This document shows positions 31,601-61,842 of a DNA stretch of 64,000 bases, piece by piece. The notes beneath the pieces were generated by a model, which did not search any database, was not told the origin of the DNA, and saw only the letters and a list, made by a program, of their open reading frames with translations. The DNA is from Pleodorina starrii (Eukaryota; Chlorophyta; Chlorophyceae; Chlamydomonadales; Volvocaceae). Where the stretch lies: contig BRXU01000025.1 in assembly GCA_030267565.1 (NCBI GenBank), positions 789,501 through 853,500 on the forward strand. The letters run 5' to 3'. The translations under genes and the position numbers were made by a program. Within the stretch, counting starts at the first letter, position 1. Each line of letters opens with the position of its first letter.

Positions 31601-34600
31601 CTATCAATGACGAAAGTGCGCTGCCCAAACAACCGAATCCCTCCCCGGCATACAGCCGCCAAAGCCACCAGCATTTTGCCACGCGCGCATTGCCTAAACA
31701 AGCACCAAAAGTACCGCATCATAATCTTTGTTGGACAGGGGCCCGTTTGGACAACGCGCACGCACCCCCAGCCTAACTGACCCCCCTTTCGCCTTTCGCC
31801 GTCCGACCGATTGCCCACCGACCGCTTCCAACAAAAGCAGCCTCCTGCTTGCCCAAGTGTCCTGCCCTGCCCTGCCTTGCCCTGTCCTGTCCTGCCCTAG
31901 AAACCTGCCCTAGAAACGTCTACAAATTGGCCGCGCACCCGAAAGCTACCTAAAGCAGCTACCACTCTATCTACGCCAGAACGTGTACAACTTCTTGTAC
32001 ATCTGTACGGCCGTACGGCGTCGGCCGGAATACATCACAAGTCGCAAAATCGCGACGGCCCCCATTTATCAAGCTCGTCCAGACAGCCCCCATCCATCCA
32101 TCCATCCTTGATGTCATGACATCGATGAACCTTGCCGATTCCGCGCAAATAAGGAAACGGAAACGGAAGAAAGCAACGCTCCAACAGCAGTGAAATATAA
32201 TCTGTGGCAGTATCAGTATTATACCGGTACTACTGTTAATTCCCCTCAAATGGGAATCCAGCGCTGCGCTCGACCCGACACATCTATAGCCTGGAAAAGT
32301 ATTTTTTAACCTGCCTGCTCTGTTCCCTAACTAGGCAACGTGACGCCAGCAGGGCACACCAATACGTGACCGCATCCGGCTACGACTGCCCAAATCGATC
32401 CTTGAATAGAAGGATTGCTTGACCGCCGCCAAAACAGCTCTTTAACTCTAATCCTGCATCTGACAAGTGAAGCTCGGGCGGCGGGTCTGCCCCCGGCACG
32501 TGACTAGCTACCTCGGCCCCAACATCATCATACACACATACACGCACACAGCTCAATAAAGGCGGGCGCCTCCCGCTCTCTCATTGACCAAACAAGCGCC
32601 CGGTGCCTTGCTTTCGAGCATCTTCTCCAGCGCGCTCTCATTCGCTTCCCGCTACCGACGAAAGCCGGAACCGCCGCCATCGGCCAATCACCCCAAACAG
32701 CCCGACTATCCCCTCATCCGACCACCAACAACGTCTCCATCCCGCAAATGAAAACTCTCTTGCCAAGAACACCCGGAAATAGCCGTCGACGCAAACCCCC
32801 TTCCCTTAACGACAATAGTAGGAGGGACACCGCACGAGGGAGCGCGCCGCGCTGAACCACCCCTCCACCCACCCAGGAGCGAGGAGCGAGCAGTCCACCA
32901 TTCTTCCATCATCCATAAAACTCGGAAGAAGGGCCCTCCCTCCCGCCCTCCCTGCCCCCTCCCGGGCCTCCGTGCCCCAGGGCAACGCGGCGCGGCCCAC
33001 AGAGGCTCTACCCGCCGAGCGCAACCCCCGCCCAGCAGGCGCGAGCAGCGTTCCCCGCCTGCATGCGATGCCGAGCACGCCGCACGCGCTGCGCGTGCTG
33101 CGCTGCGCCGCACGTGCTGCACTGCGGTCGGGGCAAGTTCAGGGCACAACAGACCCGATCTAGGCACCCAGAGCCTAAAGAGCACGAGCATGAGCAGGCG
33201 CAGACCAGACGACGCGGCAGCGCAGGGGCCGGCAGGCCCCTCAGGGCCCCTCGCAGGGGCCGGCGAGCCCCTCAGGGCCCCTCGCAGGTGGCGCCGCGCC
33301 CGAGCGGCTCTACCGTTGTCCGACCTCCGGTCATCTATCCGGGACCGTCACCATCCGGGTCCGCCCCCAGGTCCGCGTCAGCACCTTTGTGAGCTCACAA
33401 CCCACAATAAAACGTGTGTGATAAGCGACCCGCGGGTCGAAATACCAACAAGGGCCTTCCTCAGTGCGCCGCCTCTATCTCTTGCATCTCTCTCTCTCTG
33501 TATCTCTCTTATTCTCTCTCCCTCTCTTGCCGTATACCTCCTGCATTGTACGACAGCTTGCCGCCTGCTCCGCGCCGCCCTGCCTCGAGACTCACTTGCA
33601 ACTGCGGCGGCGGCGGCAATGACGGCAAAGACGGAAGAAGGGATACATCCGCGCATCCAATTCAGAATCCAATCCGACAGAATTGATATCCAAATCCATC
33701 CATACCCAATCGGATCCAATCCGCGTTTGCATCCCAATCCGCTCCCTCCTCAGTCACAGACGCACCACGCAGGCCCCGTTGGCCCCTGTCGAGACAGCCG
33801 TTGGAAAACCGCACCAGCCAACATCCTGCTGGGGACTACACCGCAGAGTTTGCCCCCCCGTTGACCGTTGCTCCAGATCCAACAAGCACAACGGGACACG
33901 GGATAAGGCCCATATGGCACCAATGGATCCACCGATGGATCCACCGATGGATCCACCAATGGATCCAGAAGCTGTGCGAACACGTGACCTCGCCGGCTCA
34001 ACCAAACCACCGTGCCCGCCAGAACCCGCACTTTGGAAAGGATGAACAAGGCAACCGGACTGCGTCCCCCAGCGTGAAGCCTCTCGTCCGTTTTACCACC
34101 ACAATTGGTCAAGAGGAGGATGGCGTACGGCCGCCGTACTGTCGCATCGGACGACAACGCCCGCCTTTTTATCGAATATCTCACCCACCTCTCTCTCGCG
34201 CCGAGTCCCTCGCGCTGCCCTGCAACGGTGCCGCAATTGTACGACAGCATGCCCTGCAACGGTGCCGCAATTGTACGACAGCATGCCCTGTAACGGTGCC
34301 GCAATTGTACGACAGCTTGCCCTGCAACAGTGCCGCAATTGTACGACAGCTTGCCCTGCAACGGTGCCGCAATTGTACGGCAGCATGCCCTGCAACGGTG
34401 CCGCAATTGTACGACAGCATGCCCTGCAACGGTGCCGCAATTGTACGACAGCTTGCCCTGCAACGGTGCCGCAATTGTACGACAGCTTGCCCTGCAACGG
34501 TGCCGCAAGCGGCGACTTTGCAGAAACGGGCGCGGGATCGGGCGCGGGCGCGAGGAACGGCGACAGCAGCCCCCAGCAGCAGGCGCCCCAGAAAAACGGG

Positions 34601-40850: not shown

Positions 40851-43611
40851 TCACGTGTGCCCCTGCTGAGAGCGTGCCGTCTCCTCAACGAAATAAGTGC
40901 CGATCGTGCCTTTCGGCTGAGATGAAATGAAGCGCTGCATCGGTGTGCCCTGCACCCCGCTCTCTCGGGCGTCCCCGATGACGTTACCGCCCAGAACCCC
41001 GCCCTCTCTGCCACTCCCGCTGACGTGTCCGCCGCCACCGTTAAACCCGCCTCCCCCGCCCATGTCCGCGACGGCCCTGCTGCCCGACGCGTTTCCGCCA
41101 CCACCAACGGCTGCACCTGCGCTCCCTGCATCGCATAGCGCGCTCTTGTTGAACAGGTTCGCCACTGGGTCTTCAGGGCTGGGGCTGTGTCGGCGGTTGG
41201 AGACTTGGGCGACTTTCGCCAGGTCTTGGGTAGCTGGTATTCCCTGGCCCTCGTCGAAGCTACCCCCGGAGGTCCCGGCACCACTGGCGGGCGTTCCTGT
41301 GCGCTTGCCCTGTGACGTTTGAAAGCTGGGAGCGAAGGTTGGGTCCAGCCCCACCCCGACGCTCACCGCACAGCTGTTCAGCCCGTGCAGCTTCCGTGAA
41401 AGCTTGTCCTTGATGACGCTGTCCTCCAGGTGGTCGATGACGACCTTGGGCACCTGGGGGCCGGGGTGCGGCACGGGGCCCTGCAAGGTATCCAGGCTCT
41501 GCTTGACCTTTTGAAGAGCTGACTCCATTTCGGGGTCGAATGCCTCCGACAGTACTGATCTCACGGAGGGAGCGTACGCATAAAATGCCTCCATGACGTC
41601 GTACTTCTCCTGAACCTTGGCGTGCTGGTTGTAACGGTACTCGTGCTGCACGTGCTTGGACCGTTCTGTGAGGCTGGCTGCGGCCTCGGAAGTTCCAGTG
41701 TCGTACTCTTGCAGCGTGGCCAGCAAAGCAGTCATGTCCTGCATCAAGGGCCTGATGGTGTTGTCCCGGGTTTGTAAGAGTGCTGCAGCTGTGGACTCCA
41801 ACTTCATGGCGGCTGTCACAGCCTCCGTGCGCTCCTCGTCGTCGACTGCCCTCCTGCAAGGTTACACGTGCCGACATGTATTGGAAATGCAGTTGATGTT
41901 CCTCATAGGTTACACATGTATACATCAAGATAATTAGGCATGCGGGCAAGCAACGACATGTGTCCGTGATAGTGGACACAAGTTGCACAATAATCAATAC
42001 TGTACGACCCCGACCATCGTGATTATTGAAACTCAATGGCTTACTCTCTTGCGGTCCGCTCGCTGGTAAGGGAGTTCGCGACACCCAGGAAGTCCTGCTT
42101 GATGAGCCCACTGAAAAGGCTAGAGACCCCGGGTGTACGAGACATGGCCTGCAAATTCGAGAAGAGCTTTCCGAGGCCCAGGACTGTGGAAGGCGGAACT
42201 TGGCTGGCCTCGGAGTGCTGCCCCTGCTTCTGCAAGAGCTGCACGATCCGCAAGGTCGCGTGGTCATCGTTGGGCTCCGAACCGGGCGCCACGCCGCCTG
42301 AAGGATGCACAGGGCCGTGGCAGTGAGAATCACACAGCTATTTAAACAGGAAAGCCACGGCGTTTGCCCCACCTACCCGACGGCATGCCCTGCGGCGCCG
42401 CCTGCATTTGCGGCTGCGACGGAGGCGCCTGCAAGGGGCCGGGGGCTGCGCGAAAGGGAGCGCAGCGGTACGACGTTAACAACAATGCAAGCCTTGCCGT
42501 ACCGCAGCGCCCAGAGGAAAACGGCGCGTACCATGCAGCGCGTTGGGAGCCATCATCCCCATCGCCTGCATCTGCTGGGGGCCGAACCCGGGCGCCACGC
42601 CGCCTGAAGGATGTACAGGGCCGTGGCAGTGAGAATCGCACAGCTATTTAAACAGGAAAGCCACGGCGTTTGCCCCACCTACCCGACGGCATGCCCTGCG
42701 GCGCCGCCTGCATTTGCGGCTGTGACGGAGGCGCCTGCAAGGGGCCGGGGGCTGCGCGAAAGGGAGCGCAGCGGTACGACGTTAACAACAATGCAAGCCT
42801 TGCCGTACCGCAGCGCCCAGAGGAAAACGGCGCGTACCATGCAGCGCGTTGGGAGCCATCATCCCCGTCGCCTGCATCTGCTGGGGGCCGAACCCGGGCG
42901 CCACGCCGCCTGAAGGATGCACAGGGCCCTGGGGGATCGCGCCCACAGCGACGCCACCTGCACGAAGGGTACGGAAGTACAATTTAGCTCTGTACGTTTT
43001 GTAGATTACATCACCTTCATCATGAGTTGACACACCTGCTAGGGCGACCAGGGCATCTGCAGCGTTCCTTGCTGTTTCTGTGAAAAGCATGAAACATGGT
43101 TTTGAGACTCCAAGTGACTAATAATCCCTGCGCATGTCCTCTTACCGTTGAGCCCACCACCAGCTGCGGCCTTGTTCCCCCTATCGCCAGCAGTGGAATC
43201 GGCGCCGCTGCTGTCGCCGTCCGCGTCAGAGCCTCGCTGTCCCGACTGTTGAGGCCCCGTACGTGTACCCTCCTTAGGTACAAGCGGCTTGTCCCAGATG
43301 CAGAACTTCTGCGTCTGGAGCTTGGCCTCGCTAACCGTTTTCAAGATATTTTCCCCCGAGATCACTTCCGTGTGCGTCGACATGCCACGCTGCAGTGTGT
43401 GCTGGTTGAACTGCGTCTTGTGGATTATGGTGCGCAGCGACAGCTTCTCGCTGTTCTTGTGACCCTCGAAGCACTTCGAACAGAACGCCATTCGGGAGAA
43501 CGCAGCTGCGAGACATACACGATCAGGATTTCGTACACACGTGCGTGAAGTGAGCCCAAGTTGCCCAAACGCTGTGCAAAGTTACGGGAGTATGGCTACC
43601 CTACCCTTTTT
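40851..43611 (-). pseudogene. 3' part of an uncharacterised gene split by the LTR element
   Basis: Carries the end of exon 2 (43611-43605) and exons 3-10: 43505-43146, 43077-43036, 42957-42838, 42751-42683, 42603-42532, 42445-42377, 42297-42045, 41853-40851. All junctions keep phase, and exon 2 joins the 5' part at 56425 in frame across the target duplication. Together the parts would encode about 822 aa. Visible here: a Cys/His-rich stretch (AFCSKCFEGHKN followed by HKTQFNQH), a Gly/Ala/Asn linker, a duplicated Pro/Gln/Met-rich exon pair, a helical segment (TLRIVQLLQKQGQHSEA) and a 333-aa last exon that is helical at first and Gly/Ser-rich later. I recognise no family. An internal ATG at 43491 could still give a shortened protein. 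Listed as a pseudogene because this allele is interrupted in coding sequence; splice sites and frame look undamaged, so disruption is recent. Confidence 0.72.
42297..42957. repeat. 306-bp tandem duplication spanning two exons
   Basis: Two copies with a 306-bp period run from about 42285 to 42910 and are almost identical. Each contains one exon encoding APGPLQAPPSQPQMQ and one encoding GGVAPGFGPQQMQA with the intron between, so the protein gains an in-frame Pro/Gln/Met-rich repeat. One of the few differences changes a Thr to Met codon. Confidence 0.9.
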
Positions 43612-43616
43612 GTTGG
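43612..43616. other. Target site duplication, left copy (GTTGG)
   Basis: GTTGG lies immediately outside the left LTR end (TGTTGTAG) and recurs at 56425-56429 immediately outside the right LTR end (CTACAACA). A five-base duplication is typical of Ty3/Gypsy integration. Confidence 0.9.
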
Positions 43617-43898
43617 TGTTGTAGTGAGATACGTAGGTAAATACCTTTGTCTCAGGCCGGCACTGCCCCGGCCACGGTATTTACTACCGTGCTCAGAATC
43701 GAATCAGAACTTAACGTCCAGTCATCGTTCTTTCTGTGAGCAAAGACGGCTTCGAGATTCGTGATTGTCGTACAGATTCTAGAATACTCGATCAAGAGAT
43801 ATTCTATACTATTCGGAAGGTTCTGTTATCGGTAATTCGATAATCATAATCATATTCAATAATTCGCATAAGTCCTGTGTAGCCATCACGCTACAACA
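43617..43898 (-). repeat. 3' LTR (complete, 282 bp)
   Basis: Complete LTR with terminal TGTTGTAG...CTACAACA inverted ends. Compared with the split 5' LTR it differs at one position inside (CATCGTTC versus CATGGTTC on the plus strand) and at one in the terminal 16 bp. The pol stop codon lies inside its first bases in the sense direction. Confidence 0.93.
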
Positions 43899-46800
43899 GC
43901 TGCCTCCCCCCCCGAGGAACCAGCGTCCGCGCTGTGTTCCGGGTGAGTTTTCCAATATTCGTTCACCAATTCGTCTGGAACGTCCTTCGAATCAAGCCAC
44001 GTGTTGTGTTCGTCACCGTAGCCTTGCCACTGTACCAGGAAGCGATACAAAGTCCGTCGGCGTAACTTCCGTTCTTCGTGTTTCACAATTTTCGAAATAA
44101 CCCAAACGGGTCGGGAAGTTTCACCATCGATTTCCAAAGGCGGAGGTGGATTCGTAGGTCCGTTCGACACGTCAGTACGATATGGACGTAGCAGAGACAC
44201 ATGGAAGACATCGTGGAATCGATATTCAGGAGGCAACTTCAATCGAAACGCAACGGGATTGATGCGTTCTGTGATCGTAAAAGGTCCAATGAATTTCGGC
44301 ATCAATTTCCGTGTTCCTGCTTGCAAAGAAAGGTTTCGAGTACTCAACAAAACTTGTTGTCCAACAGAGAGAGTGATTTTTCGACGGTTTCGACTCTCCT
44401 GTACCAAAGCGCGATCTTGAGCAGCTTCGTAAAATCGTTTCGCAAGTTTCAACCGATCGTGTAGGGTGTCAACGTAATCTTTTGCAACGGGAACGGCGTC
44501 ACCCAGTTCCAACTGCAAAGGAGTTCGAGGGTGGAAACCGTAGTTCAAGAAGAAGGGGGAATGTCCCGTCGTTCGATTTTTCAGATTGTTTATCGAGAAC
44601 TCAGCAGCGTCGAGATGCTGATCCCATTCGTGCGGATCATGCGTCGCATAGTGTCGTAGCATGTCGCCGAGAACGCGATTGATTCGCTCCGTCTGTCCAT
44701 CGGATTCGGGGTGAAAAGCCGTACTGGTATGTTGCTTCGCACCAGCGCGTTTCAACAACGCAGGCAGGAAATGCCCTTTGAATCGTGGGTCGCGATCGGA
44801 AATAATCGTTTTCGGCATTCCATGAAGTCGTACCACGTTATGGAACATCAAATCCGCAGTTTGGATCGCGGTTGCGGTCGTACGGCACGGAGCTAAATGT
44901 ACCATTTTCGTGAGGCGATCTACAAAGACGAGGATCGCATCAAAATGCCGTTTCGTCTTCGGAAGTCCCACAACGAAATCCATGGACACACTGTCCCAAG
45001 GCATTTCAGGAATCGGCAAAGGTCGTAATTCCCCAAACGGCAAACCGGATGCAGGTTTAGTCCGTTGGCAAGTATCGCACTTCGCAACGAAGTCGGTCAC
45101 ATCAGCTCGAAGGGTTGGCCACCAGAAATTTCGTTGGACGAGTTCGATAGTTCGGTCACGACCTGGATGGCCAGACAACGTGTCAGCATGGGCTCGAGCG
45201 ATGATTTCGTGTTTCAATGCAGGGTCGTTAGGAACAACGATTCGCCATTGGTTCTCCTCCTCTTCCAAAACGTAAAATCCGCCAGGATGTGTAATCAGGG
45301 GACGAGTGTTTTTCGGATTTTGGAAGTAAGCGTCGCGCTGCGTGGCTTCAGCCAGCCGAGTGAGGAGGGGCGAATCAGAGGAAGGTTCGACCGCACAGAG
45401 AATCGTGGCCAGATTCGGGTGCCGGGATAAAGCGTCGGCAACAACGTTCAATTTGCCAGGGCGATAAACCCAGTCGAAATTGAACTGTTCGAGAAATTCG
45501 ATCCATCGGGCCTGTCGTCGACTGATATGCGTCTGCGTTTTCAAGTATGTCAGGGGGTGATGGTCAGTCACCAGAGTGAAGGGAATGTTACTCTGCAAGT
45601 AACAACGCCACTCACGTAGTGCGTTCACAACGCCAAGAAGTTCTTGTTCGCCAGTCGCATAATTTCGTTCAGCCGGAGAAAATTTGCGGCTCGTGAAGGC
45701 AACGGGACGTCCGTCCTGAAGTAGGACAGCGCCAGTGCCGTTCAAAGAGGCATCGGAAACCACTTCGAAAGGTCGTTCGAAATCAGGGTATGACAAAAGG
45801 ACGTCAGTCGACAGGCGGTTCTTGATGGATTCAAAAGCAGCCAACGCCTGTGGTGGCCACTGGTCCGGGAGGCGCGAATTGGAGAAAAGATCCGTGAGCG
45901 GCGCGGCCAGAGAAGCAAAATTTCGGATAAATCGGCGAAAGTAATTCGCAAGGCCAACAAAGGCCCGCAACTCGCTCAGGTCTTTGGGTAACGGCCATGT
46001 TCGAATCGCTTCCACCTTTTTCGGATCCATTCGAATTCCGTCCGCACAAACCACGTGACCAAGGTATTTCACTTCAGATCGCCAAAATTCGCATTTCGAT
46101 AATTTGGCTTTCAAGTCGTGCTTACGGAGAGTTTCGAGCACCAATCGTAGATGATTCGCATGCTCCTCTGGTGTTTTCGAGTAGATGAGAATGTCATCCA
46201 GGTAGACGGTTACGAATCGATGCATGTAGGGTGCGAAAATTCGGTTCATCGTCGCTTGGAACGTTGCGGGAGCGTTCGAAAGACCAAAAGGCAGCACCAA
46301 CCATTCGAAATGTCCGAGCGGCGTGTTAAAAGCCGTTTTCGGAACGTCGTCGGGATGAATTCGCAGTTGGTGGTAACCAGAGGCCAAATCAAGTGCCGTA
46401 AAAAGACGTGCGCCCGACAAACGATCAAGCGTGTCATCGATTCGAGGCAGAGGATAGCGGTTCTTAATCGTGATTCGGTTCAGGGCTCGATAATCGATAC
46501 ACATTCGAAGCTCTCCAGTCTTCTTGGTCACAAAAAGGATCGGCGCACCGTAGGGCGAAGTGGAGGGTTGGATCATCCCTTTCGCCAAAAGTTCTTTCAC
46601 TTGTTTTTCGACCTCTTCCTTTTCCAGGAGAGACAACCGATATTGTGGTCGGAAAACAGGTTGCGCGTCAGGTTCGAGCGGGATAGTATGATGCACACCA
46701 CGGTCAGGTGGCAACCCGGTAATGGGGGCAAAAACGTCCGCGTAATCGTGAAGAATTGTCGAGAGTTCGCGATTCGCTTCGATATCGGGTGGAAGATTGA

Positions 46801-47926
46801 TTTCGGGTTCGAGCGAATTAACCTGTGGAACGGGGCTGGGGAAGGATGCGGTCTGAGAATCGAGAGGGCGGACAACCACCAGCAACCCGCGAGAACCGGG
46901 TGACTCGCACAGGTCTCGCAATGCGCGTTCCGCGGATACCACAGACGTGCGCTTAGGCGCTTTTTCGAGAAAATTCGTTTCGATAGGAATCGGATCGTCG
47001 GTCGGAATGGGAGGTGCTTGTAAAGCGCGCAGCACAAACTGCCCACCGTTCGGCCGTTGGAGGGTAAGCTCGCCACGCGCGGGCCTTAATCGCGCGTCGA
47101 AGCGAGACAAGAAATTCGAGCCAAGGATTACGTCAGCGGAGACAGTCATGCTTGGAAGGACGAGCAGACGTACGTCGGTTCCAAAACGGTCGAGACGTAA
47201 ACGAGCACGACATTCGCCAAGAATGGGGCTAGTCGACTGATCCGCTAAGCGTACCGGCGCGAAAGGAGAAGGCAAGAGTCGTAATCCGAGCTTGGTAGCC
47301 AGGGTCTGGGAGATGAAACAATGCGTAGCGCCTGTGTCTGGGAGAACTCGTACCGCAGTGGCGCCAAGTCGGCCCGCAAAAAGGTTCAGCTGCGCATTAC
47401 CATCAGTAACGGCGCATTTCGGTTCGACGGGTTGACTTTTCGGAGGATCCCACCAGATTTCATGGCTAGTCGTTTCAAGTGTCGGGTCGGGAAAATCGAG
47501 TCGTTTCGATTTGTACAGCTGAGTCCCCTCCGGCAGGGTCATAAGTCGTGTCATGCCATGAAGAAGGCTACGAACGTTTCGCAGATCAGCCGGAACAAGG
47601 ATACACGCTGAGATGCTCGGATCGAATGCCTTGCAGGTTCGATAGTGTCGTAAGAAAGACGCAAGAAGATGAACGGGAGGGTTCATCCAGATGGTGTGGC
47701 CGGAACAATCGAAAGTCAGGAAAGAGCGGGTCGGAGAAGCGAAAACCTTACAAATCGAGTTACTGCCGTCATCGTTGGCAGCGGCGTCCAAGGTAAACGT
47801 TCGTCCAATGCGCTCCTCAAGCTGCGCAATAAGGTCAAGGTCAAACATGCGCGAGTCGTAATCGGGAGCTAGTTTCGAAACGTTCGACCCAGTACGTCCG
47901 CCACACAAAAACGACTGGGCATCTCC
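43886..47926 (-). CDS. pol: Gypsy pol polyprotein with Dam-like region and chromodomain
   Basis: Open from the codon after the TAG at 47929-47927 to a TGA at 43888-43886, which falls just inside the 3' LTR. Numbering from the TTG codon at 47908: Dam-methyltransferase-like region 20-165 with TLDAAAN and IWMNPP (73-78); aspartic protease [12 protein letters not shown] (191-193 DTG); reverse transcriptase with YLDD 569-572; RNase H from FEVVSDAS (715-722); integrase with the HHCC zinc region (913-947, HPGRDR ... CDTCQRTK), catalytic D977, D1038 and E1074; chromodomain about 1268-1325 ([11 protein letters not shown] ... TWLDSKDV). No internal stop, so enzymes look intact. There is no natural ATG at the front: expression would need read-through of the TAG from gag. 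The RT-IN order marks Ty3/Gypsy, and the chromodomain marks a chromovirus. Confidence 0.95.
43899..43917 (-). other. Polypurine tract next to the 3' LTR
   Basis: In the sense direction GGGGGGGAGGCAGC directly precedes the TGTTGTAG start of the 3' LTR, the expected site for plus-strand primer formation. It overlaps the last pol codons. Confidence 0.75.
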
Positions 47927-48095
47927 CTACTTCGGGTGCGGGATTCCCGGGCACGCGGCCTTAATGTGCTTAGCCTGCTGCCCGCACTTAAAGCATCGTC
48001 CCTGGTCCATCCATTCGAACTTCGCCTTGTTCGTCAAAAACGTTCCGGGAACTAGGGGGTTCGGGACGTTCGACGGTTCGTTGGGCTTCTCGACA
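47927..48095 (-). pseudogene. Displaced gag C-terminus with CCHC zinc knuckle and TAG
   Basis: In the pol frame this stretch encodes a repeat of the EKPNEPSNVPNPLVPGTF segment, then FEWMDQGRCFKCGQQAKH and IKAAC, a CX2CX4HX4C nucleocapsid knuckle. It ends PGIPHPK and TAG (47929-47927), after which pol continues in the same frame. It is cut off from the main gag frame by the 202-bp duplication just upstream, which shifts frame by one base. Confidence 0.85.
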
Positions 48096-48425
48096 GGACC
48101 GTCAGGGCCACAACCGCGACTCGACCGCTGCGAACCAGGCGCGCACTGACGAGGCGACTCCGGCGCGGCCTGGGCGTGTCATGTCGAAAGCGATGCAGTG
48201 GGCCTTTCGGATGGCGGAAGAGACGCCCAACGAACCGTCGAACGTTCCGGGAACTAGGGGGTTCGGGACGTTCGACGGTTCGTTGGGCTTCTCTTCCGCC
48301 ATCCGAAAGGCCCACTGCATCGCTTTCGACATGACACGCCCAGGCCGCGCCGGAGTCGCCTCGTCAGTGCGCGCCTGGTTCGCAGCGGTCGAGTCGCGGT
48401 TGTGGCCCTGACGGTCCTGTCGAGA
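48088..48425. repeat. 158-bp near-perfect inverted repeat inside gag
   Basis: Arm 48088-48245 is complementary to arm 48268-48425 with about two mismatches and a 22-bp spacer. Flanking this, about 50 bp around CGTTCCGGGAACTAGGGGG is directly repeated with a 202-bp offset (48041 and 48243). Together this looks like a template-switch duplication of gag sequence. Confidence 0.9.
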
Positions 48426-49529
48426 TCGCTTGTTGACAGCTTCAACCCACGACGAGGTCGATGGTCGTTTGCCGTTGTCGTTGGCGTCCTGTCGGGAGTT
48501 TCGGGAACGTTTCTTAGAACCAGAGGCCGCGTAATGCAAAGAAGCGCGCGACTGGCCCTGGGCCCGTGCCTTAAGCTTCTTTTCTTCGCCAATGGCATAG
48601 TCGACAAGGTCGGTCAAGTTCGCGAATTCGTTGCCATTGCTATCGACACGGCACTGAGCTTGCAGTTCGCGAATCAGGCCCTTACGAAACATCTTCACCA
48701 AGGCCTTCGAGTCAGTAAATTTCGCACGGCGAGCGATTTCCCGAAAACGAGCATTGTATTCGGCAACACCCTTCGCCGGATCCATTCGCACTTGACCCTC
48801 AAGCAACTGTTCGAGCGCTTCATCTTCCTTCGTGCGCACCTTGGGGTCGAAGCGGTTCAGAAAATCGCGGAGGAGTTCGGTCAGATCGAACGGCTTGTTG
48901 GACTGCTTCTGCTCCCTTCGCCAGTCAGCCAGCCAGTCCTGAGCACCGGGCGGGTACTCTTTCACCGCCGTTCGGAACTGCCAAACGGAATCTTCGAGCT
49001 GGTTCGGAATGAATCGCACAGCCCACTCCTGGAAGTCGTTGACAAAGTTGTCGAGGGATCCGTCCTTCGATGGCTGCGGGGGTTCGTTTTTCAAGTGAGG
49101 TCGCAGTTCAGTCCGGTTCGAAGTTCCATTCAAAGCAAAACGATCAGCATCAGAATCGTTTCGAGTGCTTACCGACGGCACAGGGGGTCGCGATCCTGAT
49201 GCGCCCGCGTTGGCCAAATCGGCCTGAGCACGAACCAGTTCGAGTTCGGCCTGCTTCAACTTCAACTGCGTTTCAGCGAGCTGAATCTGAGCAGCAATAT
49301 CGGGGTTCGAAGGTCCAGTCGCCGTCTCGGCGCCGGTCGGAGTCGGAGTCGGCGTGGTCCGAGCAGGCGGCGGCGGCTGCTGCCGTTGCTGCTGCTGCCG
49401 CTGTTGTTGCTGGGTCGTGTTCGCAGGGTTCGGAAGGTTCGTAGGGTTCGCAGGGTTCACGTTGTTCGTGTTGCCATCTACGGGCATAGGATCGTTCGGC
49501 AAAGTGTTCGTCTCTGTCGGGTCGGTCAT
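48102..49529 (-). CDS. gag: Gypsy gag, truncated before the zinc knuckle
   Basis: ATG at 49529, 475 codons. The N-terminus is Asn/Pro/Thr-rich with a Gln run, followed by a helical stretch (LAETQLKLKQAELELVRAQA-like). A retrotransposon capsid domain follows, roughly residues 150-320 (FVNDFQEWAVRF, WQFRTAVKEYPPGAQDWLADW, EQLLEGQVRM, VAEYNARFREIARRAKF). It then reaches SKAMQWAFRMAEEKPNEPSN and runs into an inverted copy of its own coding sequence, ending at a TGA in the wrong strand sense. Without the duplication, gag would continue into the CCHC knuckle and the TAG at 47929. So this copy makes a Gag lacking nucleocapsid and cannot make Gag-Pol. Confidence 0.9.
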   Translation of the reverse strand: MTDPTETNTLPNDPMPVDGNTNNVNPANPTNLPNPANTTQQQQRQQQQRQQPPPPARTTPTPTPTGAETATGPSNPDIAAQIQLAETQLKLKQAELELVRAQADLANAGASGSRPPVPSVSTRNDSDADRFALNGTSNRTELRPHLKNEPPQPSKDGSLDNFVNDFQEWAVRFIPNQLEDSVWQFRTAVKEYPPGAQDWLADWRREQKQSNKPFDLTELLRDFLNRFDPKVRTKEDEALEQLLEGQVRMDPAKGVAEYNARFREIARRAKFTDSKALVKMFRKGLIRELQAQCRVDSNGNEFANLTDLVDYAIGEEKKLKARAQGQSRASLHYAASGSKKRSRNSRQDANDNGKRPSTSSWVEAVNKRSRQDRQGHNRDSTAANQARTDEATPARPGRVMSKAMQWAFRMAEEKPNEPSNVPNPLVPGTFDGSLGVSSAIRKAHCIAFDMTRPGRAGVASSVRAWFAAVESRLWP

Positions 49530-49742
49530 AGCTGAACGTTAGCGTATTGCAAACCTGAGATGCAGAGTCGCGCGAGTAGCTCGCGAATGAACACTGCGTC
49601 AGTCAGACGGCTTGCTGGCAAGTCACTCAGCATGAACCACTCTGAACCGAAGCCGTAGCGACCTAACGCGTGAAGCACCGCCGACGACTTGAGACTAGCA
49701 AGTCGTGCGGCTCGTTCGTCTGGTGTAAAGTCGAAGCGAGTC

Positions 49743-49763
49743 AGTGTTGCTGAGACACCAAAG
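49743..49763 (-). other. Candidate primer binding site
   Basis: In the sense direction TGGTGTCTCAGCAAC starts five bases after the CTACAACA end of the 5' LTR fragment (49765). TGG is the expected start of a sequence complementary to a tRNA 3' end. Which tRNA is not identified. Confidence 0.5.
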
Positions 49764-49764
49764 A

Positions 49765-49780
49765 TGTTGTAGTGAGGTAC
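49765..49780 (-). repeat. Inner 16-bp fragment of the 5' LTR
   Basis: TGTTGTAGTGAGGTAC on the plus strand matches the first 16 bases of the complete LTR (43617-43632) with one substitution. It is separated by 6,377 bp from the rest of the 5' LTR and abuts the primer-binding region, showing where the LTR was cut. Confidence 0.88.
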
Positions 49781-50376
49781 AGGAACGCCACGGACCGGCG
49801 TACGACTGGACGAGCGAGGCCCCGGACCGGGCATACATGCCCTGCGCGGACATGCGCATTTGACCGGCAACCGACCGGCAAGTCTCTGCTTTTGGCGTCC
49901 TCAACCCGACTGCGTCGACCCTTTTTTGCGGGCGCGACGACTGGGCGCGTTTGCAGCGCAAATGCAGTGTAATGGAGGTTCGTTAGGGCTCGGCAGAACA
50001 CAGCGAGGTGCCAAGAAGGTCGCTGGGAGTGTAAGAGTAGTGTAACACTATCATTACACTACAATGACGCGAGCGGAAAGTGCGGCGTGCTGGCAAAGGC
50101 ATTTGGAAGGGCGCTGTGACAATGTTGTGCATTGGGAATGGTATAAATGTTCGCTGGGCGTCGAAATGAACTGCTGGTCGTCAAGGCAGGTCGTGGAGCC
50201 CGAAGCGACAATGCGAGTCGTGCGTTTGTGAGGAGTTTGTGAGGAGGGTAACAGCTGCGTAACGTTATCATATACATCTTCAAGAATGAGATGTCTGAAC
50301 GGGTCAGCTCGTATGATGAAGGTGACGGGTGCGTCATACACCGCACACGGCCCTTGCCGACACATTTCCAACCCCG

Positions 50377-51584
50377 TTTTCTTCCCAGTCCGAGACCGGA
50401 CCCCCGCTCCCCACCCCCTTCGTGATGCGCTTTGATCATTCGGATATGTTGGTATGCGGCGCGCACCAAAGGAAGCCCGGGCGGCTTTACAGTGGGCCTT
50501 GAGGTGTCTCCCCACCCCCCTTATGGTCTCCCCACCACCAGGCACGCGGCGGGTGCGCGTCCCCCCTTTTCTTCCCAGTCCGAGACCGGACCCCCGCTCC
50601 CCACCCCCTTCGTGATGCGCTTTGATCATTCGGATATGTTGGTATGCGGCGCGCACCAAAGGAAGCCCGGGCGGCTTTACAGTGGGCCTTGAGGTGTCTC
50701 CCCACCCCCCTTATGGTCTCACCACCACCAGGCACGCGGCGGGTGCGCGTCCCCCCTTTTCTTCCCAGTCCGAGACCGGACCCCCGCTCCCCGCCCCCTT
50801 CGTGATGCGCTTTGATCATTCGGATATGTTGGTATGCGGCGCGCACCAAAGGAAGCCCGGGCGGCTTTACAGTGGGCCTTGATGTGTCTCCCCACCCCCC
50901 TTATGGTCTCACCACCACCAGGCACGCGGCGGGTGCGCGTCCCCCCTTTTCTTCCCAGTCCGAGACCGGACCCCCGCTCCCCGCCCCCTTCGTGATGCGC
51001 TTTGATCATTCGGATATGTTGGTATGCGGCGTGCACCAAAGGAAGCCCGGGCGGCTTTACAGTGGGCCTTGAGGTGTCTCCCCACCCCCCTTATGGTCTC
51101 ACCACCACCAGGCACGCGGCGGGTGCACGTCCCCCCTTTTCTTCCCAGTCCGAGACCGGACCCCCGCTCCCCGCCCCCTTCGTGATGCGCTTTGATCATT
51201 CGGATATGTTGGTATGCGGCGCGCACCAAAGGAAGCCCGGGCGGCTTTACAGTGGGCCTTGAGGTGTCTCCCCACCCCCCTTATGGTCTCACCACCACCA
51301 GGCACGCGGCGGGTGCGCGTCCCCCCTTTTCTTCCCAGTCCGAGACCGGACCCCCGCTCCCCGCCCCCTTCGTGATGCGCTTTGATCATTCGGATATGTT
51401 GGTATGCGGCGCGCACCAAAGGAAGCCCGGGCGGCTTTACAGTGGGCCTTGAGGTGTCTCCCCACCCCCCTTATGGTCTCACCACCACCAGGCACGCGGC
51501 GGGTGCGCGTCCCCCCTTTTCTTCCCAGTCCGAGACCGGACCCCCGCTCCCCACCCCCTTCGTGATGCGCTTTGATCATTCGGA
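50377..51584. repeat. 190-bp tandem array, 6.3 copies
   Basis: CTTCCCAGTCCGAGACCGGA recurs at 50381, 50571, 50761, 50951, 51141, 51331 and 51521, an exact 190-bp period. Copies differ by only one to three bases. The last copy breaks off after GATCATTCGGA. No conserved frame runs through it since 190 is not a multiple of three. It lies downstream of the recombinase gene within the same insert. Confidence 0.95.
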
Positions 51585-51798
51585 CACACATTCAGCGAAG
51601 ACCAATGCCTGGCACCCCCATTCCACGCCCCACATCCATTCACCACCCGCATCGTTCTTCATCACGACGTGACAGTGTCTGCACGTCCCCAGAAGCGCAA
51701 GGCCACCGCCCGGCGTGCTCATAACAGTATAGCACGGGGACAGCAGAGTCTCACCCGCCCCCGTCCATGTTGCCCCTGCATCGCTCTTGAGAAGGCCT

Positions 51799-54206
51799 TC
51801 AAAGCGGCCACACGTTCGCAGTCACGTAGGCAGCACGCGCATCCTGCCATGACTTGCACGCCTGCAACCGCTGCACGATGGGGCTATCGGGCACTGTGTC
51901 CGCTAGCTCGAACGAGTCTTGCACGGCAACTTCTGCGATCCATTCCATGGCCGCCAGGTTCGCCGGCACAGACACCCTGTCCCCAAGGCCCGCTGCCACG
52001 ACCTCAGCCACATTTGAACGCAGCTCGGGAAGGTAGGAGAGGATAAGTTCCTGCGTTCACGCAAGACGAGTCATTGCACGACAGCACATGAGCGCACCCG
52101 AAGCGACAGGTCCTACCTTGCACTCGTTGAGGGTCTTCTCTGGCACCTCGAACATGAAACGGGGCGCCCAGTAAGCGCTTTTTACCCCACCAGGGCCGTC
52201 ACACGGATATCCCGCAAGGACAAGCAGTCCCTCGGGTGGCTGGTTCAGAACGTAAGACTCCACCACGGAGTCCTGCGACCACCTCCCGATGCGGCGGATA
52301 GTGTCCAGGCACACACTGCACGATAAACGGAACAGTACGTCTTACATGCCTGACTACATGGATTGCGGAATCCAAGCGCCTTACTTGTACGAATCCAGCA
52401 TCCTGGCACCTGCCACGCGGAAGGCGTGCATGACCTTGCTGGTGATGATCTCCAGTAGCACGAACACCGCTTTGATTGAATCGTACTGCGACTTGTACGT
52501 GACGCCAACACACCCCTTCTTGGCCGAGCGCAGCAGAGGGCGGCTCTCCCTAACAATGACACAGAAACGGGAAACGGCACGGTGAGGGTCAGGGAAACGG
52601 GGCCGGGACGACGCGGGACATGGGAGGGTGCTGCAAACGGAGCTCAAGCCAGGGGCATGCAAGATGGTGTGTGTCCGACATGGGAAGGGAGGGCAGCATC
52701 AGGAGTACTGCAAGTTAATGAGGGGTTGCCACGAAGGGGACAGTCAACTTACCAATCCTTCCTGTTCCTGGGATCCGGGTACTTCTCGCCTCCCGCTTGG
52801 CCGTGAAGAGAGAATCGCACCATCAGGTACTCTGCCAAGGCTCGTATCGCGCACATGGCGGCAGTCCTCCCACGCAGCAGCGCCATGTATTTGGGGCGGC
52901 CCCCCTGCACCGTGAATTGCGTACGCCAACAGGTCAGGCTAGGGAAGAGGCGAGGTAGGTGCGGTAGCGGTATTCCCTTCTCCCGGTATCACCTTCTGCG
53001 TCTTGCCGCCGTACAAAGTGATGTTGAGCACCTTGGCGCCAATGCTCTTGGTGTCACGCGGCGCCCCGATATCGCACAGGTTCATGATGCGCGAGTCGTC
53101 AGAGCGACCCACGCCGAAGTGGAGCAGAAGCGCGGTGAACCTACAAGCATTTGCGGACCTTCTGTTTGAAACATAGCGAACTCGGGGCCGGCCCCCCCCT
53201 AGCGCATTACTTTGGTGAGATCAGAGCGCTTGGCGGGACCCTTTGCTTACTGGCACAGCACCACGCGCAGCAGGTTCCAGCCCAGCCTCTTCGCTGCCAC
53301 CGCGCCAGAGGCCATGAACAAGCAGAAGGCGGCGAACTCATCCCCATCGTAGCCGTCGTTGACAGTGTTGGCCAAGGAGTCGCCCGTGCGCCTGCAAAAA
53401 ACACACGGTCACACTCTCAACAGAATAATCTCGACTGTTACCGTGCATAGCAATCTTACCTGCCCCCTGGCAGCACCCTGGTCTTCGCTACATCGAACCG
53501 CGCCTGGAACTGTTGGTTCTCCGCAATCCCCCTCTCCCGCTGCTTGTTAGCGCGCAGGTGGTTGGTGATGTCCAGCTCCACCAGCATACTCCGGCATTGG
53601 TTCAGGGTCGAAAAACTCCACTGCGGCAGAGCGTGTGAGTGCAAGGGGAGAGCGCGTGGGAAAGGGGAATGCAATGTGCTCAAGCGGGGGGCGAAGGGCA
53701 CGCCGCTATAACCCGATCCAGCAATGCTGCTCCACCTCACAAACACCAAGGATGCCCTCCCACCTTCGGGGTCACGCCATCCGGTGTCTTTGCATTTCCG
53801 ATGAACTCCAGAAAAAGCCCGCCGGCTTTCGCGAGGTCTTCACCAAGGAGCGTCTCCGGGTCCCCCTTCCGGTGGTCCTTGCAGTACTTCTGCGGCCGAG
53901 TTAACGCACAGGTGGGGACGCAACGGGGGGGGGGCGTGGGGAGACAGGGGTGACATGGCGGGAACCGAGCGCGAGGAAGCCCACGCTGAAGCATTACCAC
54001 CGCACATTGCATTAACCCACCTTGAATTTCCGAAATTGCTTATCGTAGGCCTCCCTTGTGGCTTTCTTCTTTGAGCCCTGAAAGTCGTTTGCAAGGTCTT
54101 CGCCGTCGAGGTCTGCCTGGGAATATGGCCTCTCGTCTTCGTCATCCTCGTAGCCAGCATACGCATCGTCCTCTTCACGGTCTAAAGCTCTAGCAGCTGC
54201 TTGCAT
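51799..54206 (-). CDS. Crypton/NDC10-type tyrosine recombinase
   Basis: Catalyses site-specific strand exchange of a Crypton-type mobile element. Nine exons in phase from ATG at 54206: 54206-54021, 53889-53764, 53620-53460, 53391-53251, 53140-52993, 52904-52753, 52549-52385, 52315-52117, 52050-51799; 509 aa. The acidic N-terminus precedes a core-binding region (ATREAYDKQFRKFK-YCKDHRKGD). Catalytic residues in order: R217 in HFGVGRSDDSR, H346 and R349 in KVMHAFRVAGAR, W372 in GRWSQD, and nucleophile Y381 in VVESYVLNQPPEG. LLVLAGYPCD and YWAPR after the tyrosine match the C-terminal signature of Cryptons and yeast Ndc10-related proteins. All junctions are clean and no stop interrupts it, so the gene looks functional. 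Eight introns in a transposon gene is unusual for a recently moved element. Alternative: a domesticated host gene carried by a larger duplication. Confidence 0.86.
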
Positions 54207-56157
54207 GGTGAATCTTTGTTGCAAGCTCCCTCAGACGCGTGCCATTATGAACAGTAACCTAAACATGTAGCTCCTAGTAGTTTGAAACGGCTGCATGAGC
54301 CAGACAGTTCTGCAAGTGGGGGTCAACACGAAATGGGCAAGTCCAAGACACGAAATTGCTTGTCTTGACTGAGCTAGACTAAAAGTATTTATGTTAATAT
54401 ATGCCTAAGGCAAAAAAACTAATGTTTTATCTGTAGAAAATACAATTTGGGGGATGGCGGATCGGTTGGACGATACACCGCTCCGCCGCCCGCTCCGCCG
54501 CCCGGTCAAGCCGGTCCGCCGGGCGCACGATATTCTCTAGTTCGCGTCGACAGCTCGGCTCGCTCCGCTTAATGTTACGGCTCCGCTTAATCTTACATCA
54601 TGGCCTATGTCAAATCGAAGGCAGAGTTACTGCCAGATGCTCATGTTTTGGATTTCCTCGGCCCAAATTGTCCACAAGGGTGTAAGGCGATTGCTTTCAG
54701 ACCCTGTCACGCATCACCCCTCGCGCACGCGTCCCGCCGTGGGTTCGCCAATGGCCGACGCTGAATCAATTGTCAAGTCATGCCAGACTGCTTCAGCTGC
54801 CAGGCAGCAGCGGGCACGCCGACGATAAACACAAGGAAGGTTGGACATTTTGGATCCCCAGAGGCAATGACCCAGCCCTCGACAGGGATACCTGAAGGAC
54901 CCAGCCGCGCACTACCTCTGTGAGCGCTGTGAAGTAGCAACTCGGTGAAGACATACACCTCGCTTCACTGCCCGGTATAATCAGTTACGCCGCGCCTCGG
55001 CGGGTGATGACAGTCATGTATGACAGCAGCCCCTTCACACCTACCACGCGCACGGCATGGAAGATCCTCCTTGCAGCATGCTCCATGTAATTGCATGTAA
55101 TTGAATGAAAAAATCAAAGCCATGTGTCAGGTTGCCTACGTGTTGTGTCAAATAGACGCAGATAGACCTCATGCCCCCGAGCGAACGAAGTAAGTAAGCA
55201 CACGCGCCGAGAACCCTGGCATTATTCCTTCTGAAAGCGAATACCGTACATGTACGCACATCATCTTAATTCTGGACAGCACGATCATTGTACGGCACTT
55301 TCGGCACGTACGAGAAAATGAAACCGCTACGTACGGCCAAGCTGCTGTGGCACGCACGTAGAGACAAGCAGCGGCAATCAAGTCAGCACCGTTAGTTTTC
55401 ACACACGAGCAACAATAACGCGGCGGCACTAGAAGAATATGCGGCAGCTACGACTTGTACCGTATTTCCCAACCCGTGCCACAACCGAACTCCTGTGCGC
55501 ACTATTTTGTGTCGTCATCGCCATCGCCAGCACCGTACCTCCTCCGCTCCGTCGGCGGCCTACCGCCCGCCCCCCCGCCCCATAAAACGCTAATAATCCA
55601 TCTGATCGAATATTTGATACAAATTATTAACATACGTATTATTAGAAAATGAAGTAGACCCACCCGCCCGGCAGAGCGAATGAAAGCGAACGGCAGCTAG
55701 CGAGACCCGCCGCCGGCAGAACGTACACCAACAACCAACCAACCAACCAACCAATTAACCAACTGACTGACCAACCGGCCCTCCAGCAGCCGTCCAGCAG
55801 CGGCCCTCCAGTAGCCCTCCAGCAGCAATCCGCATAGATATCAGGAACTGACACTAAACTGAAGCGGAGCACCAGCGGGCTACCTTGCTTGCTTCAGAGC
55901 TCACACGCACAACGACCAGCATCGTCCGGTGGACAATTCTGAATTTCTGTTGACTGCTTTGCCGGATACCGACATGCACCTACGTACCCACGTATGCGAT
56001 ACCTTTTCCCTATAAAAAACGCATGCACGCACGCACGAGCTATACATGGCGCGTCAGCTTTTCGCCAGCTGCTTCTGCTGCTGCTGCTGCTGCTGCTACG
56101 GCTGCTGCAGAGCCGGCGGTCTCTTCACTCACGCAGAATATGGCGACCGGGCGGATT
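54207..56157. other. Non-coding right part of the insert
   Basis: No supported gene. It contains a Cys/Gly-poor open stretch without recognisable domain, CCGCTCCGCCGCC-type repeats (54477-54515), AACC repeats (55733-55775), and a CTG trinucleotide run (56072-56106) close to the junction with the LTR. It probably holds the recombinase promoter (left end) and the element terminus (right end). Confidence 0.5.
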
Positions 56158-56424
56158 CGTAGGTAAATACCTTTGTCTCAGGCCGGCACTGCCCCGGCCA
56201 CGGTATTTACTACCGTGCTCAGAATCGAATCAGAACTTAACGTCCAGTCATGGTTCTTTCTGTGAGCAAAGACGGCTTCGAGATTCGTGATTGTCGTACA
56301 GATTCTAGAATACTCGATCAAGAGATATTCTATACTATTCGGAAGGTTCTGTTATCGGTAATTCGATAATCATAATCATATTCAATAATTCGCATAAGTC
56401 CTGTGTAGCCATCACGCTACAACA
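56158..56424 (-). repeat. Main part of the 5' LTR (267 bp)
   Basis: Identical to 43632-43898 except for one base. Its outer end (CTACAACA on the plus strand) abuts the GTTGG target duplication at 56425. Its inner 16 bp are displaced to 49765-49780 by the insert. Confidence 0.93.
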
Positions 56425-56968
56425 GTTGGGGTCGCAGAGAACGCTGTCGAGTTGCACCTCGAGGGACGCGTCATCGGGAGGGGCCCCACGGCCCGATGGG
56501 TAGGCGGGTAGGTCCTTGTTGTACATGTCCATCACCGTCGCCCCATGGGACTCCATCGCGTGCAAAACGGCGTGCGACGGGGTAATGAAGCCGAGGTTGA
56601 CCCAACCTGGTGCATCGGGGTTGTACTTGCAACCCTCCACGCCGCAGTACAGCGCACCACCGACGTCGATATTGTAGTTTTCTGCAAAAGCGTTCACCAT
56701 AGGACAATGTCATTGGCAGAATAAGTATGTATGTTATTGGCCTTCACTTACTCTGGCGCGCCGCTGCTGGGCGGCCAGACCGTGTGGGCTGCGCTTGGGG
56801 CCGAGGCAAATCCTCGCTATGGGATATCAGCGTGTTGTTCCTATTTCGGAAGTGAGCAGGAGCGGCAGGAGCACCTCCCGCCTTGGGTGGCTTGCCGCCT
56901 TTTCCACCTTTCCCACCGTCACCGTCTCCTCTCCGCTTCCTCGTTTCCATTCCTCGTTTCGATGCCAT
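56425..56968 (-). pseudogene. 5' part of the uncharacterised split gene
   Basis: Exon 1 56968-56752 starts at a true ATG and encodes a Lys/Arg/Gly-rich stretch (METRKRRGDGDGG, GGKGGKPPKAGG). Exon 2 begins at 56681 (KNYNIDVGGALYCG) and runs in frame to the retroelement at 56425 (VLCDPN). It includes a C-x4-C ... H-x3/4-H arrangement (YCGVEGCKY, SHAVLHAMESH) that could be a zinc finger. The gene continues at 43611 as N-K-K and a donor six bases later, then exon 3, giving the 822-aa protein described under the 3' part. The insertion falls only seven bases before the end of exon 2. Confidence 0.72.
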
Positions 56969-57069
56969 TTTGATTATGATGAATCCGACGGCAAAATAGC
57001 TATACGCACGAAGCTGCTATCGAGCAGAAGGCGGAATTCATTCCGTGCCCATTTCCGTGTTCTATTACA

Positions 57070-57494
57070 AAAAGTACAGGGGCCGTGGGGATTTATCTGT
57101 CAGTACCTTGTAACATTTATGTATAGTTTAGTCTTGACTTTAGCGGTCGAGAAAAGAGAGCCCTGCGTTTTTGCGTATTCCATCATTTGTACGGATTGTG
57201 TAAGATGTCCGCTGGCGCCAACTTCGGTCCCTGAGTCACTGTGTGCTGCTACTTCTGCAGCATGCGTTTTCACCAATTCAGTGAAATTCCCCAAGTTGAC
57301 ATCAATTCATGCGTCAGATGTTGAGCGCGTTTTCAGACGAAATTTGTTTACAACATCTGCAGTACTTCCAACATTTTCAGCAGTTTCCAAAAGTACAGGG
57401 GCCGTGGGGATTTATCTGTCAGTAACTCGTAACAATTATGTATATTTCAGTCTTGACTTTAGCGGTCGAGAAAAGAGAGCCCTGCGTTTTTGCG
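57070..57494. repeat. Pair of 106-bp direct repeats 319 bp apart
   Basis: 57070-57175 and 57389-57494 share long identical blocks (AAAAGTACAGGGGCCGTGGG; GACTTTAGCGGTCGAGAAAA) with a handful of differences. The spacing could mark ends of a short element, but no terminal inverted repeats or target duplication are visible. The rest of 56969-58835 has no supported gene. Confidence 0.8.
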
Positions 57495-61320: not shown

Positions 61321-61842
61321 CGGCGCCCCGGCAGTGCAGGAGAGCAGAGGAGGACAGCAGCTGCAGCGCAGAGGGGTCCGGACAGCTGCTGCAGCGCGGC
61401 ACCGTCTCCTGCGGACGGTGCGCCGCCCCGGCAGTGCAGGAGAGCAGCAGCTGCAGCGCAGAGGGGGCCGGACAGCTGCTGCAGCGCGGCACCGTCTCCT
61501 GCGGACGGTGCGCCGCCCCGGCAGTGCAGGAGAGCAGCAGCTGCAGCACAGAGGGGGCCGGACAGCTGCTGCAGCGCGGCACCGTCTCCTGCGGACGGTG
61601 CGCCGCCCCGGCAGTGCAGGAGAGCAGCAGCTGCAGCGCAGAGGGGGCCGGACAGCTGCTGCAGCGCGGCACCGTCTCCTGCGGACGGTGCGCCGCCCCG
61701 GCAGTGCAGGAGAGCAGCAGCTGCAGCGCAGAGGGGGCCGGACAGCTGCTGCAGCGCGGCACCGTCTCCTGCGGACGGTGCGCCGCCCCGGCAGTGCAGG
61801 AGATCGGGGAGGGGGCCGGACAGCTGCTGCAGCGCGGAAGGG
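61321..61842. repeat. 90-bp tandem array, five to six copies
   Basis: GCAGTGCAGG recurs at 61331, 61431, 61521, 61611, 61701 and 61791; after the first copy the period is exactly 90 bp. Copies are nearly identical and rich in CTGCAGC and GCGGACGGTGCG. Since 90 is a multiple of three, all six frames stay open across the array, giving long frames on both strands that I do not regard as genes. Confidence 0.93.

Follow-up and report, generated by a model that had tools for sequence, protein, structure and literature searches.

Volvocine algae harbor TOC, a DIRS-like tyrosine-recombinase element, and fungi harbor Starships, which have a DUF3435 captain recombinase and large cargo. Fungal Cryptons reportedly have introns, an observation said to go back to Goodwin et al. 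in 2003. Among the Crypton groups, CryptonF occurs in fungi and oomycetes, and Cbf2/Ndc10 is related to it (Kojima and Jurka 2011, PMC3212892; here and below we draw on the part of this paper that was available). CryptonF elements have 6-bp terminal direct repeats, which are likely substrates, and no inverted repeats (PMC3212892). A circular intermediate has been proposed for Cryptons, which are hard to delimit because they have neither inverted repeats nor target duplications (PMC3212892). In the same source, terminal repeats were not found in animal Cryptons, CryptonS has mostly TATGG termini, and the hosts tabulated in 2011 are fungi, animals and stramenopiles, with no green alga. A survey that included Volvox carteri gives, in its available text, a single Crypton, in Nematostella (PMC4157794). 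Among the papers listed by searches outside Repbase and subscription journals, and in the excerpts consulted (PMC3627910 and PMC11630846 among them), no green-algal Crypton element was described.

We analyzed the window, a stretch of 64,000 nucleotides from Pleodorina starrii (C25:789501-853500), against a genome of 136 Mb in 95 contigs. Coordinates without a contig are window positions, and copies elsewhere are named by contig. An initial annotation had described 49781-56157 as one delimited 6.38-kb mobile unit carrying a complete Crypton-type recombinase. We found instead two adjacent units, and a recombinase that is whole in its catalytic part only. We consider it likely that the first unit (element 1) inserted as a circle at the target AGATAC and is without a C-terminal half that a longer form had; the second (element 2) then probably landed against it and left it trapped.

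Insertion site in a Gypsy retrotransposon

The insert lies in a Gypsy LTR retrotransposon (43617-56424, minus strand; gag-pol frames from 49538 to 43886) with the 5-bp sequence GTTGG on both sides (43612-43616 and 56425-56429). One LTR is intact (43617-43898, minus strand) and carries the uninterrupted edge TGTTGTAGTGAGATACGTAGG. The other is split, with its first 12 bases left of the insert (49765-49776, minus strand) and the remainder to the right (56159-56424, minus strand), where the target bases ATAC are absent. The same uninterrupted edge was present in all three other Gypsy copies inspected, which were drawn from 14 whose match ends at window base 49780. The LTR pair matches at 99.3% over 272 bp, with two differences; the first falls in the last bases of the insert, leaving one difference in 266 bp of true LTR. 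Judged by this divergence, the Gypsy element hosting the insert is young, in agreement with the placement in a young LTR by the initial annotation.

We also observed several repeats in and around the Gypsy element. An inverted repeat at 48088-48425 (162 bp, 14 bp between arms, 99% complementary) lies inside the gag region, where it breaks the gag frame, and is partly present in the other Gypsy copies. A 111-bp direct repeat (57065-57494; 94%, 319 bp apart) lies just outside the element, and further tandem arrays occur at 42277-42932 (306-bp unit), 61348-61803 (90-bp unit) and 34216-34508 (34-bp unit), all with 96-98% matches.

Extent, joints and target of element 1

Copies elsewhere in the genome divide the interval at a single base. 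In the whole-genome search and local alignment, the C28 copy ended at window base 54540 and a copy of the remainder at C25:400k began there; the interval is therefore composed of element 1 followed by element 2. Element 1 (49777-54540, minus strand; 4.76 kb) was found at four places. Besides the window, these are C28, which has both ends, C4, which has the 3' part with the 3' end and the tandem array described below, and C12, a 246-bp match at 93% identity that keeps the 3' end only and whose target is not readable. Both ends are intact only in the C28 copy. The C4 copy is missing the 5' part of the element up to the array, and its 5' edge adjoins ATAC. We considered a special alternative end for this copy and rejected it, since the CT of the core is gone and later deletion is the simpler explanation.

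The ends of element 1 contain a 6-bp core. The element-side copy, AGGTAC (49775-49780; in gene orientation the 3' end, GTACCT), is the same in all four copies. The second core copy is reduced to AG in the window (54539-54540) and reads AGATAC at C28, where the second joint is CTCTAG followed by ATACC. With AGGTAC on one side and AGATAC on the other, equal at five of six bases, the intact C28 copy has short terminal direct repeats.

The targets are themselves repeats, so empty sites could be read for three insertions (LTR, C28 and C4). When joined with one AG, the C28 flanks matched C28:299330-299540 at 100% without gaps (query positions 162-372) and C10:271527-271896 at 98%, and three empty sites were read. 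The joined C4 flanks matched C23, C36 and C38 at 94-96%, again with three empty sites read. The target was AGATAC at all three loci with a readable empty site, and comparison with the empty sites showed no target duplication at the LTR, C28 or C4. A fixed 6-bp target without target duplication is a Crypton signature.

In gene orientation, the 5' joint keeps the target core, GTATCT, and the 3' joint the element core, GTACCT. A DNA circle of element 1 would have recombined its own end AGGTAC with the LTR target AGATAC. Both joints would be accounted for by a single exchange on the right-hand side of the variable base, and excision would then regenerate GTATCT. In this model the recombinase as maker of the joints, the circle and the splicing are what we infer; the ends, targets, empty states, catalytic residues and shared intron positions and phases come from the sequences themselves.

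Recombinase gene

The recombinase gene (51799-54206, minus strand) has nine predicted exons, at 54206-54021, 53889-53764, 53620-53460, 53391-53251, 53140-52993, 52904-52753, 52549-52385, 52315-52117 and 52050-51799. All eight introns are GT-AG, and the predicted exons join into one frame of 509 aa without a stop, in line with the nine in-phase exons of the initial annotation. The annotation had also pointed to the Crypton/NDC10 families. A Pfam search with the 509-aa protein returned NDC10_II only, at 54.5 bits against a cut-off of 26.3, which was also passed by relatives at C9 (70 bits), C17 (26.6 bits) and C23 (48.4 bits). These relatives are 41%, 45% and 50% identical to the window recombinase, respectively. 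Searches of NCBIfam and, at the thresholds used, of RNA families and tRNAs returned no match.

The full R-HxxR-W-Y set claimed for this protein holds up in the alignment, and a lysine joins it: R217, K251, H346, R349, W372 and Y381 are invariant across the four aligned sequences (window, C9, C17 and C23). A profile of these four sequences aligned to Cre over HxxR...W...Y (E=0.0044), and all 17 PDB sequences listed in that search were Cre or its derivative Tre; a PDB search with the single recombinase sequence gave no match.

Only two database proteins matched the recombinase, both from P. starrii: P0001 (PLESTB_001533400) and P0002 (PLESTF_000846000 / PLESTM). The tail of P0001 matches C30 at 100%. 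This annotated protein (C30:49755-52395) has PAMR in place of HxxR and GRR in place of the GRW of the others. P0001 is a Crypton recombinase in which the HxxR histidine and the conserved tryptophan are altered, and it may therefore be decayed or co-opted.

A putative deletion of the C-terminal half

The window gene is missing the C-terminal half of its relatives. In the C28 copy, window 53629-51817 is replaced by 1838 bp with an Ala-rich repeat and an HMG box, the frame of which passes one model (23.2 against a cut-off of 22.4). The C28 copy is thus the complement of the window copy, with the N-terminus, the repeats and the HMG box and without the recombinase. From their sequences, the two copies look as though complementary parts had been deleted from one longer element.

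Alternatively, element 1 could naturally end after the recombinase, and the C28 copy could have exchanged its core for a captured gene that carries repeats and an HMG box. CryptonS, A and I are without a GCR1_C domain (PMC3212892, in the part available), the 1838-bp core of C28 was found nowhere else in the genome, and a full-length element 1 was not found in the whole genome assembly, all of which would fit such an ending. We nonetheless regard it as unlikely, as several observations argue against it. P0001/C30, C17 and the C9 family continue past the recombinase into repeats. GCR1_C-like matches occur at 16 places, including downstream positions at C30, C23, C20, C9, C34 and C51, although the Pfam scores in P0001 (16.3 bits) and P0002 (13.6 bits) lie below the cut-off of 23. 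P0002 links the parts directly: its exons 1-2 are identical to the window and are followed by a GCR1_C-like stretch and then by the Ala-rich repeat known from the C28 copy. The window frame takes its last residues and stop (51799-51816, minus strand) from bases that are 3' noncoding in the C28 copy, a position that would be the edge of the C-terminal deletion. Lastly, the second family described below has an HMG-like frame of its own.

We therefore return to the reading in which element 1 lost its C-terminal half. The window copy would most likely derive from an internal deletion that spared the catalytic half and removed the repeats, the GCR1_C-like domain and the HMG box; this history is a reconstruction, since the assembly contains no full-length element 1.

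P0002 is an annotated protein of female and male strains. Its GCR1_C-like stretch was not found in the C28 copy of this assembly, and the element therefore differs between strains or loci.

Element 2

The second repeated unit, element 2 (54541-56158), has the ends TTCG/TTCG and one other copy, at C25:399501-401294, to which it is 83-97% identical by segment. A clean exchange at the element-1 core would not explain its joints. When we searched the genome for an empty site of the C25:400k copy, only its own two flanks were matched. We also considered element 2 as a second, decayed Crypton on the basis of a frame at 55113-54988 (minus strand) with an HxxR-like motif (E=0.044 with an exon-7 profile). 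This candidate was dropped: the same search gave E=0.045 for an unrelated frame at 56709-56338, and a single-sequence comparison matched the candidate at E=0.58.

Elements 1 and 2 could have arrived in the LTR together, as a single 6.38-kb composite with the left end of element 1 and the right end of element 2. No spare bases separate the two units, and the ATAC of the target is missing between element 2 and the LTR, which would suit such a composite. Each unit occurs alone elsewhere, however (C28 and C25:400k), and whole-genome searches found no second copy of the composite, so that we find a joint arrival quite unlikely. In the succession that we prefer, element 2 came after element 1 and probably landed against its 5' end, where the ATAC of the core is now missing.

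A second Crypton family and the 190-bp array

We found, by their 190-bp repeats, nine copies of a second Crypton family (family 2), which are 98.6-100% identical where compared. Those at C9, C34 and C51 are 98.6-99.95% identical over 4.3 kb, and the copy at C25:120.8k, which has an internal deletion, matches at 100% in the flanking 1872 bp and about 212 bp. The C9 copy, measured from its ends, spans about 8.6 kb (C9:2898228-2906875). Eight 5' ends are 99-100% identical; the 5' joint reads CATCG in six of them and CACCG in two, and is followed by CAACAATGTACC in seven and by CCCCAATGTACC in C51. All nine 3' joints read CACCG. The family-2 core is thus 5 bp long; the target side mostly has T and the element side C, an arrangement as in element 1.

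Gene content varies across the family-2 copies. A recombinase match is present at C9, C34 and C51, and in part at C25:122k. At C44, C18, C7 and C2 there is a GCR1_C-like match without a recombinase match, and C10:2223k gave neither of the two. The last part of family 2 is an HMG-like frame that scores below the Pfam cut-offs.

The 190-bp tandem array reported in the initial annotation was recovered at 50372-51584 (6.4 units, 99% matches). All 13 candidate places were scored for the unit, which is present in three element-1 copies (window, C28 and C4); the nine family-2 copies have it at 82-88% identity, and C3 has a fragment of it. Given this distribution across sequences of both families, we interpret the array as an old part of the Crypton lineage. 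As a guess, it could be bound by the recombinase or by the tail protein.

Volvocine Cryptons could also be read as a split, two-part system. In this reading, which seems to us very unlikely, recombinase-only copies such as the window copy would act jointly with copies that provide the DNA-binding half alone, such as C28 and the family-2 copies with a GCR1_C-like stretch and without a recombinase match, and their joint action on shared ends and on the conserved 190-bp repeats would choose the AGATAC target. Under our preferred reading, the window and C28 copies would be deletion products of one longer element.

Conserved introns and recent movement

Seven of the eight introns are common in position and phase to at least one of the relatives at C9, C17 and C23. 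Introns 1 and 2 (phase 0) are shared with C17, intron 3 (phase 2) with C9 and C17, intron 4 (phase 2) with C23 and absent from C9 and C17, intron 5 (phase 0) with all three, intron 6 (phase 2) with C9 and C23 (the C17 position being ambiguous), and intron 7 (phase 2) with all three. Intron 8 was found in none of the three. We note that some splice choices in this comparison were not unique: for some introns two or three alternatives were compatible, in one instance with a different phase. Since seven of eight introns are conserved in relatives that are 41-50% identical, we interpret them as having travelled with the DNA. Together with the shared termini and the 6-bp target at three loci with empty states, these conserved introns support the DNA-only movement that had been proposed for the insert.

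Between the window and C28 copies, two non-array parts show no difference over 595 and 581 bases, and two others are 99.3-99.4% identical. We take this near-identity, along with the young age of the LTR, as a sign that the element family moved recently, and on these sequence comparisons element 1 is part of a recently spread group of elements in P. starrii. The recent mobility initially suggested is therefore upheld for the family, although not for an active copy here. The window copy is probably immobile now, as its sequence lacks the tail and an intact 5' core, part of which was lost to element 2.

The initial annotation had held that finding no other copies would favor a segmental duplication of a host gene; such a duplication, landing in the LTR without transposition of its own, would suit the low copy number of element 1 (four places), but other copies with exact shared ends in unrelated surroundings, the recurrence of one 6-bp target at three loci whose empty sites were read, the nearly identical family-2 copies, and the presence of a recombinase gene make it extremely improbable.

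Relationship to known Cryptons and significance

Element 1 shows the recombinase catalytic residues, terminal direct repeats without target duplication, and dispersed copies with shared ends, at four places for element 1 and nine for family 2. Based on these sequence features, element 1 is a Crypton-type element.

Compared with the described groups, element 1 resembles CryptonF in its tyrosine recombinase, 6-bp terminal direct repeats, absence of inverted repeats, NDC10_II match, and the GCR1_C-like tails in relatives of the window gene. CryptonF has GCR1_C in the same protein, whereas the 509-aa protein of the window copy is without it and the GCR1_C matches of its relatives are below the cut-off. 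We therefore did not file element 1 as CryptonF, comparing groups by published features rather than by a tree. Further differences are the HMG box and 190-bp 3' repeats added in C28 and in relatives of the window gene, and the green-algal host, absent from the host table in the available part of PMC3212892. As the window copy stands, its recombinase-only protein resembles those of CryptonS, CryptonA and CryptonI, but here the core is GTAYCT (GTATCT / GTACCT, rather than the TATGG-type termini of CryptonS) and relatives have tails.

CryptonV, a Repbase group of cnidarians, is likewise a target-site-specific Crypton; it is described as microsatellite-specific (PMC8869645, PMC4455052), whereas the AGATAC target of element 1 is a hexamer that occurs as a single copy inside other repeats. 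Kangaroo of Volvox (PMC4157794) and other DIRS-like elements of volvocine algae are tyrosine-recombinase elements of the same algal group and are retrotransposons, whereas element 1 keeps introns and showed no reverse transcriptase frame. Element 1 also differs from Starships, with NDC10_II as its only Pfam match and a length of 4.76 kb. The initial suggestion of a new Crypton subtype is therefore supported in part: the GCR1_C-like and HMG-box tails, the conserved 190-bp repeats and the chlorophyte host are all unusual features, but in its integration pattern element 1 is an ordinary Crypton.

The readable empty sites narrow the exchange to a 6-bp core, one base of which distinguishes element from target. 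If our interpretation is true, a multi-family, recently spread volvocine lineage would extend the Crypton host range to a green alga. The HMG box and a conserved tandem repeat would then join the Crypton parts list, and the shared introns would be a record of DNA-only inheritance.
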